DNA from: a virus
Virus record (IMG/VR): IMGVR_UViG_3300047370_000100
Span: 1 to 20,411 of that record
Strand: one strand, 5' to 3'
Length of the DNA stretch: 20,411 bases
Both the position numbers and the translations under genes were made by a program. The notes below the pieces were generated by a model. That model was not told the origin of the DNA and did no database searches. It saw only the letters and a program-made list of their open reading frames with translations. Positions 2,509 through 13,630 of this stretch are shown here, in pieces (the stretch's first letter is position 1; each line of letters starts with the position of its first letter).

Positions 2509-2692
2509 AAAATCCAAACCTATGGGTGACGGAAACCTGATGAAGACTATGTTGTTCTTCAAGGCATGTAAAGAAGTTCTTGAAGAGTATGGTCATGATG
2601 ATGCTGCATTCTACTTTGAACAGTTAGAAACGCACATGCGAGATGGTGGCACTCTTGACCAGAACAAAGCGGGAAATATTCTTGGAGTATAA
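2486..2692 (+). CDS. Small hypothetical protein, basic N-terminus
   Basis: A 68-residue protein starting MSNQRAAKKSKPMGDG, followed by a helix (LMKTMLFFKACKEVLEEYG) and a second one (DDAAFYFEQLETHMRDGG). I chose ATG 2486 because AAGGAG at 2470-2475 lies ten bases upstream; an earlier TTG at 2477 gives three more residues and is less likely. It overlaps the preceding gene by 23 bases in another frame. Its stop codon (2690-2692) lies within the late promoter TATAAATA that precedes the tmRNA gene. I do not recognise a family. Confidence 0.6.
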   Translation: MSNQRAAKKSKPMGDGNLMKTMLFFKACKEVLEEYGHDDAAFYFEQLETHMRDGGTLDQNKAGNILGV

Positions 2693-2695
2693 ATA
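2688..2695 (+). promoter_or_regulatory. T4-type late promoter
   Basis: TATAAATA matches exactly the late promoter element read by T4-like phages through the gp55-type sigma factor. The start of transcription would fall near 2700-2702, about 30 bases before the tmRNA acceptor piece. The element overlaps the stop codon of the upstream gene. It would place the tmRNA, pseudoazurin, tRNA and oxygenase genes in one late unit ending at the terminator at 5456-5486. Confidence 0.75.
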
Positions 2696-2730
2696 ATGGT
2701 GTTAATTCATAGATTTTTATCGTATTCGTT

Positions 2731-2993
2731 GAAGCAAACTGAAAGATAGACTGGACGGGGGTGCGATACCCCCCGCCTCCACCAAACCCCCTCTGAGGGG
2801 GCGAAATAGGTTCGACAGGTATCAAGTAGGAATGTGGAGAATAGGTGCGGAAGCCACCTGTGAGTCGGACGGGCAATCCCATCCGCAAGAGCGCAACAAA
2901 CTCGTAAGTGCAAACGATAATTACGCACATGAGGATTACGCCCTCGCGGCATAATCTTCGGGGTCAGGGGACGCCTAGCAACAGAAGTCCCCA
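2731..2993 (+). ncRNA. ssrA: Circularly permuted (two-piece) tmRNA
   Basis: The 3' tRNA-like half comes first. It has a T arm with stem GGGGG 2757-2761 / CCCCC 2769-2773 and loop TGCGATA, then acceptor strand CGCCTCC 2774-2780, A2781 and an encoded CCA 2782-2784. After only 12 bases comes the 5' half, starting GGGGGCG at 2797-2803. It pairs with CGCCTCC over all seven positions, including a G-U third pair, the alanyl-tRNA synthetase identity element. GGTTCGACAGG then matches the tmRNA D-loop region. CAG-TATC-AGT (2816-2827) pairs with ACT-GATA-CTG (2738-2753), joining the pieces as helix P2. The tag frame lies at 2910-2954, and the coding piece ends with hairpin GGGGAC 2967-2972 / GTCCCC 2987-2992 enclosing CCTAGCAACAGAA, typical of alphaproteobacterial permuted tmRNA. 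It acts in ribosome rescue. The 5' end of the acceptor piece is approximate. Confidence 0.93.
2910..2954 (+). other. tmRNA tag-peptide reading frame
   Basis: Reading from the resume codon GCA 2910-2912 gives ANDNYAHEDYALAA and then TAA 2952-2954. The start AND, the acidic middle and the end ALAA are the standard layout of tmRNA proteolysis tags; the ALAA end is what ClpXP-type proteases recognise. At 14 residues it is longer than the E. coli tag (AANDENYALAA), as is common in Alphaproteobacteria. The tag is what establishes this RNA as tmRNA rather than a tRNA remnant. Confidence 0.92.
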
Positions 2994-3013
2994 CTTTTAT
3001 ATTAGGAGATATC

Positions 3014-3451
3014 ATGATTAGATTTATTACATTATTTGTGGCGTTAGTATTCACTACGCCAGCATATGCAGAAGAAACAATTGTTGAAATGTTGAATAAA
3101 CGAGACGATGGCGCTCGTATGGTATATTCAGAAGATGTTACATACATCAATGCAGGCGACACAATCAAATGGTTGCCGACTGATAAAGGTCATAATGTTG
3201 AGTTTATTGCAGGGCCAGAAGGTTATGAATTACCCAAACGTTCTAAGTTCAACAAAGAAGTCTCATTGACATTCGATGTGCCGGGCGTATATTTGTATCA
3301 ATGCACACCTCATAAGGGTATGGGTATGATTGCACTTGTTGTTGTTGGTAATGATACATCGAATTTGGCACAAGTTGCGGCGACTAAAGTATTTGGTGGT
3401 AGTAAGAAGAAGTTACAAACTCTTGCTGCTGGAGTATCTTTAGGTAAATAA
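3014..3451 (+). CDS. Pseudoazurin-like type I copper protein with signal peptide
   Basis: A 145-residue secreted cupredoxin. Residues 1-19 form a signal peptide with a clear AYA cleavage site, so the protein should act in the periplasm. The copper ligands fit pseudoazurin: His60 (KGHNVEF), Cys97 and His100 in YQCTPHKGMGM, and Met105, eight residues after the Cys as in pseudoazurins. Pseudoazurins shuttle electrons, for example to nitrite reductase or other periplasmic acceptors. AGGAG at 3004-3008 is correctly spaced for ATG 3014. The gene follows the tmRNA by 20 bases and must be co-transcribed with it. An extra tail of about 30 residues rich in Lys and Ala follows the last strand. The family call is strong; its use to the phage, perhaps keeping electron flow going during infection, is inference. 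Confidence 0.88.
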   Translation: MIRFITLFVALVFTTPAYAEETIVEMLNKRDDGARMVYSEDVTYINAGDTIKWLPTDKGHNVEFIAGPEGYELPKRSKFNKEVSLTFDVPGVYLYQCTPHKGMGMIALVVVGNDTSNLAQVAATKVFGGSKKKLQTLAAGVSLGK

Positions 3452-6572: not shown

Positions 6573-7173
6573 TTGCACGACCCACAAATGGGATGTCCCC
6601 TCGCAACCAGAATCAGCAAAAGTTCAAGTGGCTCTTCTGACAGAAGAATTACAGAATATTGAACCTCCGATACGAAGACCAACGGTGGCGTTATATGCGT
6701 TCACCGACCAAACAGGACAGAAGAAACAAAACGCAAACGGCGGAACATCATTTAGTTCTGCGGTTACCCAAGCACCAGAAGTTTATCTGATTCGTGCTTT
6801 GACTCGTGCGGCTAACGGTCAGTTCTTTAAGGTGGTTGATAGGTCTGCACTAGATTGGTTAACGAGAGAGAGACAACTCATAAGACAGACACGAAGTTCT
6901 TATGAAGGTGATGGTGCAAAAAAATTACCGGCATTGACCTTTGCTGGTATGATAATTGCAGGCGGTATAGTAGGATATGACCACTCTACCGAAAGCGGAG
7001 GTGCGGGTGCGAGATATCTCGGCATCGGCTCTTCCAGAGAGTTTAGTCGTGACACAGTGACAATCAACATGAGGTTGATAAGTGTTGCGACTGGCGAGGT
7101 TTTACTTGATGTCATAACAAGTAAGACCATACTATCTGTCTCGTTATGTGGAACAGGGCACTCGACTCGTTGA
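6517..7173 (+). CDS. csgG: CsgG-like outer-membrane secretion lipoprotein (frame broken before the C-terminus)
   Basis: A 218-residue frame with a lipoprotein signal (LFLSAILVSSC, lipid-modified Cys20). The body follows E. coli CsgG closely: FTDQTGQKK, TSFSSAVTQAPEVYL (constriction-loop region, its Phe conserved), RSALDWLTRERQLIR, AGGIVGYDHSTESGGAGARYLGIG and the strand ending ATGEVLLDVITSKTILS. CsgG forms the nonameric outer-membrane pore that exports curli subunits. After TSKTILS the frame runs into unrelated residues and stops at 7171-7173, while the expected C-terminal part continues in the +1 frame (7145-7300). The constriction-loop Tyr of CsgG is replaced (QNANGG region). The start overlaps csgF by 56 bases. 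Family call strong; intactness uncertain because of the frame break. Confidence 0.85.
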   Translation: MKMVARLSLLFLSAILVSSCTTHKWDVPSQPESAKVQVALLTEELQNIEPPIRRPTVALYAFTDQTGQKKQNANGGTSFSSAVTQAPEVYLIRALTRAANGQFFKVVDRSALDWLTRERQLIRQTRSSYEGDGAKKLPALTFAGMIIAGGIVGYDHSTESGGAGARYLGIGSSREFSRDTVTINMRLISVATGEVLLDVITSKTILSVSLCGTGHSTR

Positions 7174-7300
7174 GATTGAGTCTGGGACTGCCCGAAACGA
7201 AAGCGTTTCGATTGCCACTCAACGAGCGATTGAAACAGGTGTCTTAGAACTTATAAAACTCGGAAATAGAAAAAAGTTCTGGACATTCAAAGGAGAGTAA
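7145..7300 (+). pseudogene. csgG: C-terminal part of CsgG in the +1 frame
   Basis: The +1 frame reads YVEQGTRLVEIESG, then NES and ATQRAIETGVLELI, ending in FWTFKGE and TAA 7298-7300. This is the expected C-terminal part of CsgG; E. coli has RLLEGEVG, NEP and SAIETGVIFLI in the same order. Compared with E. coli, about six residues after KTILS seem missing where the frames meet (near 7135-7145), which fits a small deletion of 3n+2 bases. It may be a true lesion, an assembly error or, less likely, recoding. The ribosome binding site of the next gene (AAGGAG) lies in its last codons. Confidence 0.7.
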
Positions 7301-11435: not shown

Positions 11436-12386
11436 ATGGCACATGCAGTAGAAACAATGGCGTATGCGGGAGAAGTTCCGTGGCACGGACTTGGTGTTCC
11501 TGTATCGAATGACCTGACTCCCCGTCAGATGATGGATAAGGCTGGTCTGGACTGGACGGTTGAGAAGGAAGACCTTGTAACATCGTCTGGCGCAACAGTG
11601 GAAGGCAAACAAGCACTTGTGCGTTCCTCTGACAACAAGGTTCTGGATGTCATCGGTAAAGGATGGAATCCTGTTCAGAATGAAGAAGCATTTGAGTTCT
11701 TCTCTGAGTATGTCCTTGCGGGTGACATGGAAATGCACACCGCTGGTTCACTCAAAGACGGTAACATGGTGTGGGGTCTTGCAAAGGTGAAAGATACCTT
11801 TGATATTCTTGGTGGTGACCAAGTTGACTCATATCTCTTGTTTTCCAATCCACACCAGTATGGTAAGTCAATCGACATTCGGTTCACACCGATTCGTGTA
11901 GTGTGCAATAACACATTGTCACTCTCACTTGGTCAGAAGGTTGCAAACTCGGTGTCTCTGAACCACCGCACTACATTCAATCCTGACTCAGTAAAAGAGA
12001 CTTTGGGTATTGCATCTGAAAAGTTTGCACAATACAAAGAGACCGCAGAGTTTCTTTCATCCAAACGTTTTGGTATTAGCGAATTGATTCAATACTACAA
12101 CGAAGTATTCCCTCGCACCTATCAAGGTAAGAAGGAAGTCAATGTCAAGACTGTTGGAGACCTGACTACCAATGCTCAAAAAGCATACGAGGTTCTGGAA
12201 ACTCAGCCTGGCGCAGAGTTCGGTGAAGGAACATGGTGGCAGGCACTGAACAGTGTGACCTACCTGACCGACCACCAGATGGGTCGTGAGGCAGACACAC
12301 GTTTGACTTCTGCATGGTTTGGTTCAAACCAGACACGCAAAGTCCGTGCTGTAGAAAAAGCGGTGGAGTATGCACTCGCCGCTTAA
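11436..12386 (+). CDS. DUF932 (phage/plasmid-like TIGR03299) family protein
   Basis: A 316-residue cytoplasmic protein that fits the DUF932 family throughout. Landmarks are the start MAHAVETMAYAGEVPWHGLG, KALV-type strands (GKQALVRSSDNKVLDVIGKGWNPVQNEE shows the typical V-x-x-x-Y/W-x-P-V-Q-N), IDIRFTPIRVVCNNTL with the conserved RVVCxNTL core, and a helical C-terminal half. The family is frequent in plasmids and T4-like phages; its biochemical role is not settled. The gene has its own sigma70 promoter (11373-11401), a strong AAGGAG site seven bases from ATG 11436 and a hairpin terminator just downstream (12404-12439), so it is probably expressed strongly, alone and early. Codon choice here looks more C-ending than in neighbouring genes, which fits high expression (impression, not measured). 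Confidence 0.85.
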   Translation: MAHAVETMAYAGEVPWHGLGVPVSNDLTPRQMMDKAGLDWTVEKEDLVTSSGATVEGKQALVRSSDNKVLDVIGKGWNPVQNEEAFEFFSEYVLAGDMEMHTAGSLKDGNMVWGLAKVKDTFDILGGDQVDSYLLFSNPHQYGKSIDIRFTPIRVVCNNTLSLSLGQKVANSVSLNHRTTFNPDSVKETLGIASEKFAQYKETAEFLSSKRFGISELIQYYNEVFPRTYQGKKEVNVKTVGDLTTNAQKAYEVLETQPGAEFGEGTWWQALNSVTYLTDHQMGREADTRLTSAWFGSNQTRKVRAVEKAVEYALAA

Positions 12387-13014
12387 AAATATCAAAGTCT
12401 TGGGAGAGGTTGACGTAATCACTTACGTCAATCTCTTTTCAAATATCGATGATAGAGATTGGATGGGTGAATTCAATAAATTCACTAAACATTATATTCC
12501 AGGCTTCCAAGAACTTGAAATACTCCCTATGTTATATTCTCTCAAGAAGACACATGTAACTAAATTTAGAGACGATTATACTGTTGAGGAAGCCGCAAGT
12601 AATTGGTCGATTGATAACGCAGTGGACTATAGAACAGGCGGTGGTCTTGGCGAAGATTATGTTACCTTGAAAGGTAGGTTGTATGAAAAGTTTTATGATG
12701 AAAGATTACTGACCGATATAAAAAAATTACTATCCGATAAATTCGGTGACGGAACAATCAGTATGTTTTTGTTAAACCTTATGAATCCACATTCAAATAT
12801 TGAACCACATGTTGATGATACAACAGGAAACAAAAGGCGTATACACATACCACTCGTAACACACCCTGATATTAAATTTCGTAACGGTAATGATGAGATA
12901 CATATGGAAGTTGGTAAGGTTTATTTGTTTGACCATGAAAAAGAACACTCAGTCATAAATCCAACAGATTATGAACGTATTCATCTGATAATGGATTGGA
13001 GACCAAATGATTAA
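12370..13014 (+). CDS. Aspartyl/asparaginyl beta-hydroxylase-like oxygenase (paralogue A)
   Basis: A 214-residue protein. Its C-terminal half carries an Asp/Asn beta-hydroxylase-type site: NPHSNIEPHVDD, KRRIHIPLVTHPD, then EVGKVYLFDHEKEHSV and NPTDYERIHLIMDW. The order H-x-D, R-h-H-h-P-L, G-x-h-x-x-F-D, E-H-S, N-x-x-x-x-x-R-h-H-L matches the family, in which two His bind iron and an Arg binds 2OG. The N-terminal 100 residues are helical and specific to this pair. ATG 12370 is the only suitable start and overlaps the DUF932 gene by 17 bases. A terminator-like hairpin lies within codons 12-23. Paralogue B follows with an 8-base overlap. The natural substrate is unknown. Confidence 0.78.
   Translation: MHSPLKNIKVLGEVDVITYVNLFSNIDDRDWMGEFNKFTKHYIPGFQELEILPMLYSLKKTHVTKFRDDYTVEEAASNWSIDNAVDYRTGGGLGEDYVTLKGRLYEKFYDERLLTDIKKLLSDKFGDGTISMFLLNLMNPHSNIEPHVDDTTGNKRRIHIPLVTHPDIKFRNGNDEIHMEVGKVYLFDHEKEHSVINPTDYERIHLIMDWRPND
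12404..12439 (+). terminator. Hairpin terminator embedded in the start of the next gene
   Basis: GAGAGGTTGACGTAA (12404-12418) pairs with TTACGTCAATCTCTT (12423-12437) around the loop TCAC: nine perfect pairs, then about six more including two G-U pairs, running into TTTT. It lies 18 bases after the DUF932 stop but inside the coding sequence of paralogue A. The same protein stretch in paralogue B is encoded by codons that do not form a hairpin, which suggests that the structure is maintained. Confidence 0.7.
12877..12917 (+). repeat. 41-base direct repeat, copy 1 (in paralogue A)
   Basis: These 41 bases, starting TTTCGTAACGGTAATG and ending AGTTGGTAA, recur without a mismatch at 13493-13533. 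They encode the same protein stretch, FRNGNDEIHMEVGK, in the two paralogues. Identity includes every synonymous position, although the rest of the genes has diverged far more, so recent recombination or gene conversion is likely. Confidence 0.85.
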
Positions 13015-13630
13015 AGTTCTTGGTGAAGTTGATGTAAGTTATTATATTAATCTCTTCTCTAATATTGATGATGCAGACTGGATAGATGAATTTTCAAAAT
13101 TCAGTAAAAAATATATTCCTTTCTTTCGAGAATTGGATAGACTGCCACTTTTGTTAAATATGAGAAAAGACTATGAAAATAACTATGAAAGTATTGAAGA
13201 GATTATTACTACTTCAGACGTTGGTAATAATCATGATGTTGTTGAGTTTCTAAATGAAGGCGACTTAAATGATGACATAACCATTAAAGGCAAATTCTAC
13301 GAAAAATATTACAACAAAAAGTTTTTCGATGAACTTTTCGAAGTTGTCAGAAATGAGTTCGGTGATGGACAATGTATGACATTGATTTTTAATTTAATGA
13401 ATCCTCACTCTAGGATTTATCCACACGCAGACGAGAGAACTGGTAATAAGAAACGTATACATATTCCTATCATTACACATCCTGATATTAAGTTTCGTAA
13501 CGGTAATGATGAGATACATATGGAAGTTGGTAAAGTATACAAAATAGAACATTCTATAGAACACTCTGTTGATAATCCGACAGATTGTGAACGTATTCAT
13601 TTAGTGATTGATTGGAAGATTAATGATTAA
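13007..13630 (+). CDS. Aspartyl/asparaginyl beta-hydroxylase-like oxygenase (paralogue B)
   Basis: A 207-residue protein, colinear with paralogue A over its whole length: both have KVLGEVDV near the start, NLFSNIDD, an I-P-x-F-x-E-L helix and the C-terminal oxygenase core. Its site reads NPHSRIYPHADE, KKRIHIPIITHPD, EVGKVYKIEHSIEHSV, NPTDCERIHLVIDW, so the metal and 2OG residues are kept. The middle region (residues about 65-95) differs most, which suggests different partners or substrates after duplication. Start ATG 13007 overlaps the stop of paralogue A as ATGATTAA. Why two copies are kept is unknown; a heterodimer or two targets are possible. Confidence 0.78.
   Translation: MIKVLGEVDVSYYINLFSNIDDADWIDEFSKFSKKYIPFFRELDRLPLLLNMRKDYENNYESIEEIITTSDVGNNHDVVEFLNEGDLNDDITIKGKFYEKYYNKKFFDELFEVVRNEFGDGQCMTLIFNLMNPHSRIYPHADERTGNKKRIHIPIITHPDIKFRNGNDEIHMEVGKVYKIEHSIEHSVDNPTDCERIHLVIDWKIND
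13493..13533 (+). repeat. 41-base direct repeat, copy 2 (in paralogue B)
   Basis: Exact copy of 12877-12917, 616 bases downstream. Flanks on both sides stay nearly identical for another ten to fifteen bases (CCTGATATTAA before, with single changes) and then diverge. Confidence 0.85.

Follow-up and report, generated by a model that had tools for sequence, protein, structure and literature searches.

Introduction

Lytic phages can carry tmRNA genes, and the idea published for marine myophages is that of an early role. In a virus contig of IMG/VR (IMGVR_UViG_3300047370_000100), from which a stretch of 20,411 bases (the window) was analysed, a tmRNA gene lies just behind TATAAATA, an octamer of the T4 late promoter type. 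In our reading, this feature is quite probably the phage's own late-transcribed ssrA, i.e. an alphaproteobacterial-type permuted tmRNA used for ribosome rescue by a marine T4-like myophage. If phage tmRNA genes as a class are wired in this way, ribosome rescue would be a programmed late function of these phages, and not the early one that was proposed for phage Melnitz.

Results

A complete two-piece tmRNA gene

The window contains, at 2723-2995, a complete circularly permuted (two-piece) tmRNA. Using cmscan with gathering thresholds, we obtained full-length matches, both on the + strand, to RF04321 (tmRNA_permuted; 2723-2954, 110.9 bits, E=2.9e-21, model positions 1-213 of 213) and to RF01849 (alpha_tmRNA; 2651-2995, 100.8 bits, E=7.6e-27, model positions 1-355 of 355). 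ARAGORN called no tmRNA in the window, a result that is overruled by the two covariance models. A preliminary description of this DNA had proposed such a gene from the letters alone and had suggested a covariance model run as a check, and its anatomy is confirmed in each of its parts (Table 1): the acceptor half precedes the coding half, the acceptor stem (sequence 2774-2803, with CCA) has seven pairs with a G-U third pair, the two halves pair in a helix that covaries in the relatives, and a tag frame with its stop codon is present.

Table 1. Positions in the window of the permuted tmRNA, its promoter and the next gene.
Feature	Positions	Strand	Basis
T4-type late promoter octamer TATAAATA, predicted +1 ~2701, no -35 element	2688..2695	+	conserved offset in relatives
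Acceptor piece of permuted tmRNA	2723..2784	+	cmscan; covariation
5' strand of inter-piece helix, UAUUC	2723-2727	+	pairs with GAAUA 2839-2843; covariation
T arm, GGGGG-TGCGATA-CCCCC	2757-2773	+	read from sequence
Acceptor 3' strand, CGCCTCC	2774-2780	+	read from sequence
ACCA	2781-2784	+	read from sequence
12-nt intervening spacer AACCCCCTCTGA, predicted to be cut out	2785..2796	+	sequence
Coding (mRNA-like) piece, including GAAUA 2839-2843	2797..2995	+	cmscan; covariation
Acceptor 5' strand, GGGGGCG	2797-2803	+	seven pairs, third pair G-U
Tag frame GCA..TAA, ANDNYAHEDYALAA + stop TAA	2910..2954	+	cmscan; codon changes relative to L154
3' terminal hairpin, GGGGAC ... GTCCCC around conserved CCTAGCAACAGAA	2967..2992	+	covarying stems in relatives
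Pseudoazurin-type blue copper protein, signal peptide-like start, next gene after tmRNA	3014..3451	+	PF00127; PDB pseudoazurins

The folding of the uncut precursor as a single sequence was no better than that of shuffled sequences (z = -1.0) and was dropped as support, which comes from the covariance model scores and from covariation in the relatives. In this precursor (2785-2803), the CCCCCU of the spacer can pair with the AGGGGG of the acceptor 5' strand, in competition with the acceptor stem, which counts against a working two-piece RNA; most other short phage tmRNA spacers, compared with AACCCCCTCTGA, are A+T-rich.

Covariation and tag conservation among relatives

Viral contigs were scanned with a tmRNA pattern that is blind to the promoter, and also with pseudoazurin, which gave at least 94 distinct permuted-tmRNA loci after filtering for acceptor and T-arm pairing (an arbitrary sample, in which many contigs are fragments). 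When 18 sequences of the tRNA-like part were aligned, 14 of the 27 pairs proved to be altered on both sides with pairing kept; covariation scored 0.506, compared with 0.166 for shuffled alignments and 0.094 or less for slid registers. This covariation spans the T arm and the inter-piece helix (helices 1-4 of the alignment). The G-U third acceptor pair is present in all 18 aligned sequences, an invariance that is partly selected, since the search pattern prescribed the sequence of the acceptor (the T arm and the inter-piece helix were free to vary). At the 3' end, the relatives keep the hairpin loop CCTRGYAACAGAA on a stem made of many different compensating sequences. Additionally, the tag ends in LAA at 81 of the 94 distinct loci (among the matches listed), and a comparison of the window tag with the tag of one relative (L154) shows six synonymous codon changes (stop codon included) and a single replacement.

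Identity of the phage

Two near-identical contigs overlap the window (G004, 99.9%; G002, 99.7%), and a relative, G008, shares the block 2539-3451 at 87%. This relative encodes gp55 (45% identity to that of Melnitz), gp45, gp44, gp23, gp20 and gp18, as well as gp19, gp21, gp22, the terminase, DNA polymerase and gp41, and its sheath gene has TATAAATA 29 nt before the start. The window itself does not hold gp55, gp33 or gp45; gp55 and gp45 were seen in G008, in a region that the window fragment does not cover, a point that counts against the late reading. Based on these T4-type genes, and on the match of the window's CsgF, CsgG, FecR, CHASE2-cyclase, DUF932, DUF3310 and PDDEXK genes to those of Melnitz, we assign the phage to the T4-like phages of the Melnitz/HTVC008M kind. 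The csgG gene is frameshifted at 7140-7291 of the window, probably by a sequencing or assembly error, since the frame is continuous in the 99.9% identical G004. Two similar ORFs (12370-13014 and 13007-13630) lie in tandem, with 77% DNA identity over ~235 nt, and have been assigned to no family.

A predicted T4-type late promoter in front of the tmRNA

The octamer lies 28-35 nt before the start of the covariance model match, at -13 to -6 of the predicted transcript, and occurs four times in the window, always on the + strand, against 0.88 copies expected. No -35 element accompanies it, the best candidate at a usable spacing having two of six matches. A point against the late reading is a weak sigma-70 match (TTGACC-N16-TATTCT, 9/12) just upstream, which lies inside coding sequence; such matches occur at a rate not above that of shuffled sequences. 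In close variants the octamer keeps its position despite a different upstream gene (L192, compared with the window and L154), and the leader of the window lineage has ~23 extra nt. We read the octamer as a T4-type late promoter because it is conserved across different upstream genes and has no -35 element, and because a close relative of the phage, G008, encodes gp55 and gp45. Such a promoter had been described earlier at 35-40 bases from the gene; the promoter holds, at a slightly shorter distance.

Promoters across phage tmRNA loci

Enough upstream sequence was available for 92 distinct phage permuted-tmRNA loci among the matches listed, and at 46 of these the exact octamer lies 51-90 nt upstream of the acceptor, against none in six other 40-nt control bins of the same loci. 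When the listed loci were grouped at 80% identity, the octamer was found in 19 of 27 clusters (which are still related to each other), and therefore it does not represent one repeated sequence. The idea that all stable phage RNAs use this promoter is ruled out, since only 1/66 distinct tRNA genes of the same set has TATAAATA within 100 nt (among the matches listed).

The octamer is frequently combined with a second element. Among the matches listed, a sigma-70 promoter is in register at 35 of the 46 octamers linked to a tmRNA, compared with 17 of 228 TATAAATA sites that are not linked to one (an odds ratio of 39, with the relatedness of the loci ignored). Two layouts occur, TTGACA-N17-TATAAATA and TTTACA-N17-TATAAT with TATAAATA 5 nt further on. 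Given this frequency, phage tmRNA genes usually look dual (early and late), Melnitz included, and purely late control of all relatives is ruled out by the TTGACA upstream of most of them. Nevertheless, no sigma-70 partner was found at nine distinct loci among the matches listed, including the window type and its closest relatives, so that the window clade, to judge from its promoter sequence, looks late-only. The late control proposed in the preliminary description thus stands for the window and does not extend to most related phage tmRNA genes. For the class as a whole, we lean towards T4-type late wiring in which most promoters are sigma-70/gp55 composites expressed throughout infection, with the window clade being late-only. 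Three points are regarded as new here: that control in the window clade looks late-only, that the octamer recurs in front of phage tmRNAs, and that many of these have composite promoters. A partial literature search found no earlier report of any of the three.

These same composite promoters speak for the view that the tmRNA is an ordinary early gene, in which a sigma-70 promoter of the host type merely uses TATAAATA as its -10 box and the product acts early, e.g. by tagging host proteins. The sigma-70 promoter is in register in Melnitz and at the 35 of 46 listed loci given above, and the Melnitz tmRNA promoter was put in the early class, using BPROM (PMC9004378). However, the window clade has no -35 element, and the choice of -10 sequence is different close to the gene: among the matches listed, sigma-70-like sites away from the tmRNA in the same contigs have TATAAT 132 times and TATAAATA 8 times, whereas those near the tmRNA have TATAAT 0 times and TATAAATA 40 times. 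We consider the early reading unlikely.

Discussion

Proposed mechanism and the question of the host

Based on what is established for two-piece tmRNA and for T4 late transcription, we infer how a late-transcribed tmRNA would be made and used, from its transcription, processing and charging to tagging and to its benefit for the phage. Host RNA polymerase, with the late sigma factor gp55 and the gp45 clamp, would start near 2701, and the precursor transcript may run on into the pseudoazurin gene. Host RNase P and 3' processing would then remove the 12-nt spacer, leaving two RNAs that are held together by pairing in the acceptor stem and in the inter-piece helix; charging with alanine would rely on the G-U pair. 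Together with host SmpB, this RNA would free ribosomes that have stalled on broken mRNA in the late phase of infection, and the partial proteins, marked ...YALAA, would be degraded by ClpXP. The phage would plausibly benefit, since in this phase, with host transcription off and broken mRNAs building up, the supply of host tmRNA may become too small. SmpB was not found in 29 phage records (four complete genomes among them), and the bacterial control was positive.

The tag and stems of the phage differ from those of the sampled alphaproteobacterial tmRNAs, and 385 alphaproteobacterial genomes gave short matches only (the nearest being ~70 nt at 83%). The clade-specific tag pattern occurs in two MAGs, an alphaproteobacterial one whose tmRNA is permuted and a Spirochaetes one whose tmRNA is standard. 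The assignment of a host by the closest tmRNA was dropped, given these short matches and two MAGs of different groups.

The unlikeness to the sampled alphaproteobacterial tmRNAs also bears on a second alternative, in which the phage brings a spare tmRNA to make up for host tRNA or tmRNA that is cut during infection by nucleases or toxins of the host's defence. The phage carries a tRNA-Pro gene as well, which points in the same direction; we nevertheless hold this supply function to be improbable as the main explanation. The remaining view, that the gene is a non-functional relic taken from a host by imprecise prophage excision, starts from the fact that mobile elements often integrate at tmRNA genes (PMC11915505), but is very improbable and largely refuted by covariation and tag conservation, the gene being complete, with covarying helices, mostly synonymous tag changes, its own conserved promoter, T4-like relatives and no close bacterial copy among the 385 genomes.

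The pseudoazurin neighbour

The product of 3014-3451 matches Pfam PF00127 (3e-15) and pseudoazurins of the PDB (1.8e-24), with the type-1 copper ligand residues within GHNVEF and YQCTPHKGMGM. The neighbour noticed earlier is therefore real, and its linkage to the tmRNA is confined to the window clade, where it directly follows the tmRNA in four distinct variants (among the matches listed); as a general rule the linkage is ruled out. In pseudoazurin-bearing virus records, many of them fragments, a tmRNA was found at E<=0.001 in 28 of 80 (27/49 and 1/31). Relatives of this pseudoazurin occur in 254 stretches of IMG/VR and in none of 50,697 phage records, and the gene is thus of an auxiliary type that isolate phages lack. 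One locus (L177, IMGVR_UViG_3300032047_001380) joins the window-type promoter and tmRNA to the pseudoazurin of another clade (the 85% type), a mosaic that suggests recombination near the 3' end of the tmRNA.

Implications

A late promoter that is often fused to an early one in the relatives makes the purpose of phage tmRNA testable. In particular, the footprint of this promoter recurs in many lineages of phages, some clades looking late-only and others dual, and from it one can predict when phages carry out ribosome rescue. The fusion of a sigma-70 element with one for gp55 is suggested as a sequence hallmark of phage genes needed throughout infection.

Comparison with known systems

Permuted tmRNAs above the Rfam cut-off, left unannotated, are present in HTVC008M (145161-145370), CcrColossus (132369-132662) and RcSimone-Hastad (32190-32477). 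In several phages (L230, L231, L228, L229, L282 and Melnitz at ~46.1 kb, L201), the spacer between CCA and coding piece seems to contain a small ORF that has a ribosome-binding site and in many cases encodes a hydrophobic stretch (e.g. MSSCCTRKRTWKDIMYLPMAIVFTLVG.. ending inside GGGGGCGAAATAG). L230 and L231 differ by synonymous changes at 12 codons and by replacements at 13, with the frame kept, and such an ORF seems, from its sequence, to be a gene nested in a tmRNA.

That the type of gene might not be new, as the preliminary description allowed, is borne out by the two-piece ssrA of the Methylophilales phage Melnitz (MZ577097), which was annotated as early and given an early role in the recycling of host proteins, in a survey that counted 53 two-piece structures (PMC9004378). 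Melnitz shares with the window the permuted tmRNA in a marine T4-like phage, csgF, csgG, FecR, CHASE2-cyclase and the octamer just upstream, but differs in its perfect TTGACA (at 17 nt), in a spacer that is longer, in a glutamine riboswitch reported for it and in gp33 as the downstream gene, whereas the window has no -35 element, a 12-nt spacer, pseudoazurin downstream and no riboswitch match by cmscan at the gathering threshold. Melnitz has 25 octamers, among which those in front of virion genes are without a -35 element and the one in front of the tmRNA has a perfect -35, and we offer the reading that its tmRNA promoter can serve both early and late.

The alphaproteobacterial two-piece tmRNAs (RF01849, RF04321) have the same gene order, G-U acceptor, inter-piece helix, ANDN..LAA tag and 3' hairpin with CCTRGYAACAGAA; the window gene differs in being phage-encoded, behind a phage-type promoter. 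T4 late promoters (TATAAATA, with gp55/gp33/gp45), which lack an upstream element (PMC2988020), have the exact octamer and no -35 element, as in the window. The window promoter differs from them in driving a stable RNA gene and, in most of its relatives, in being overlapped by a sigma-70 promoter.
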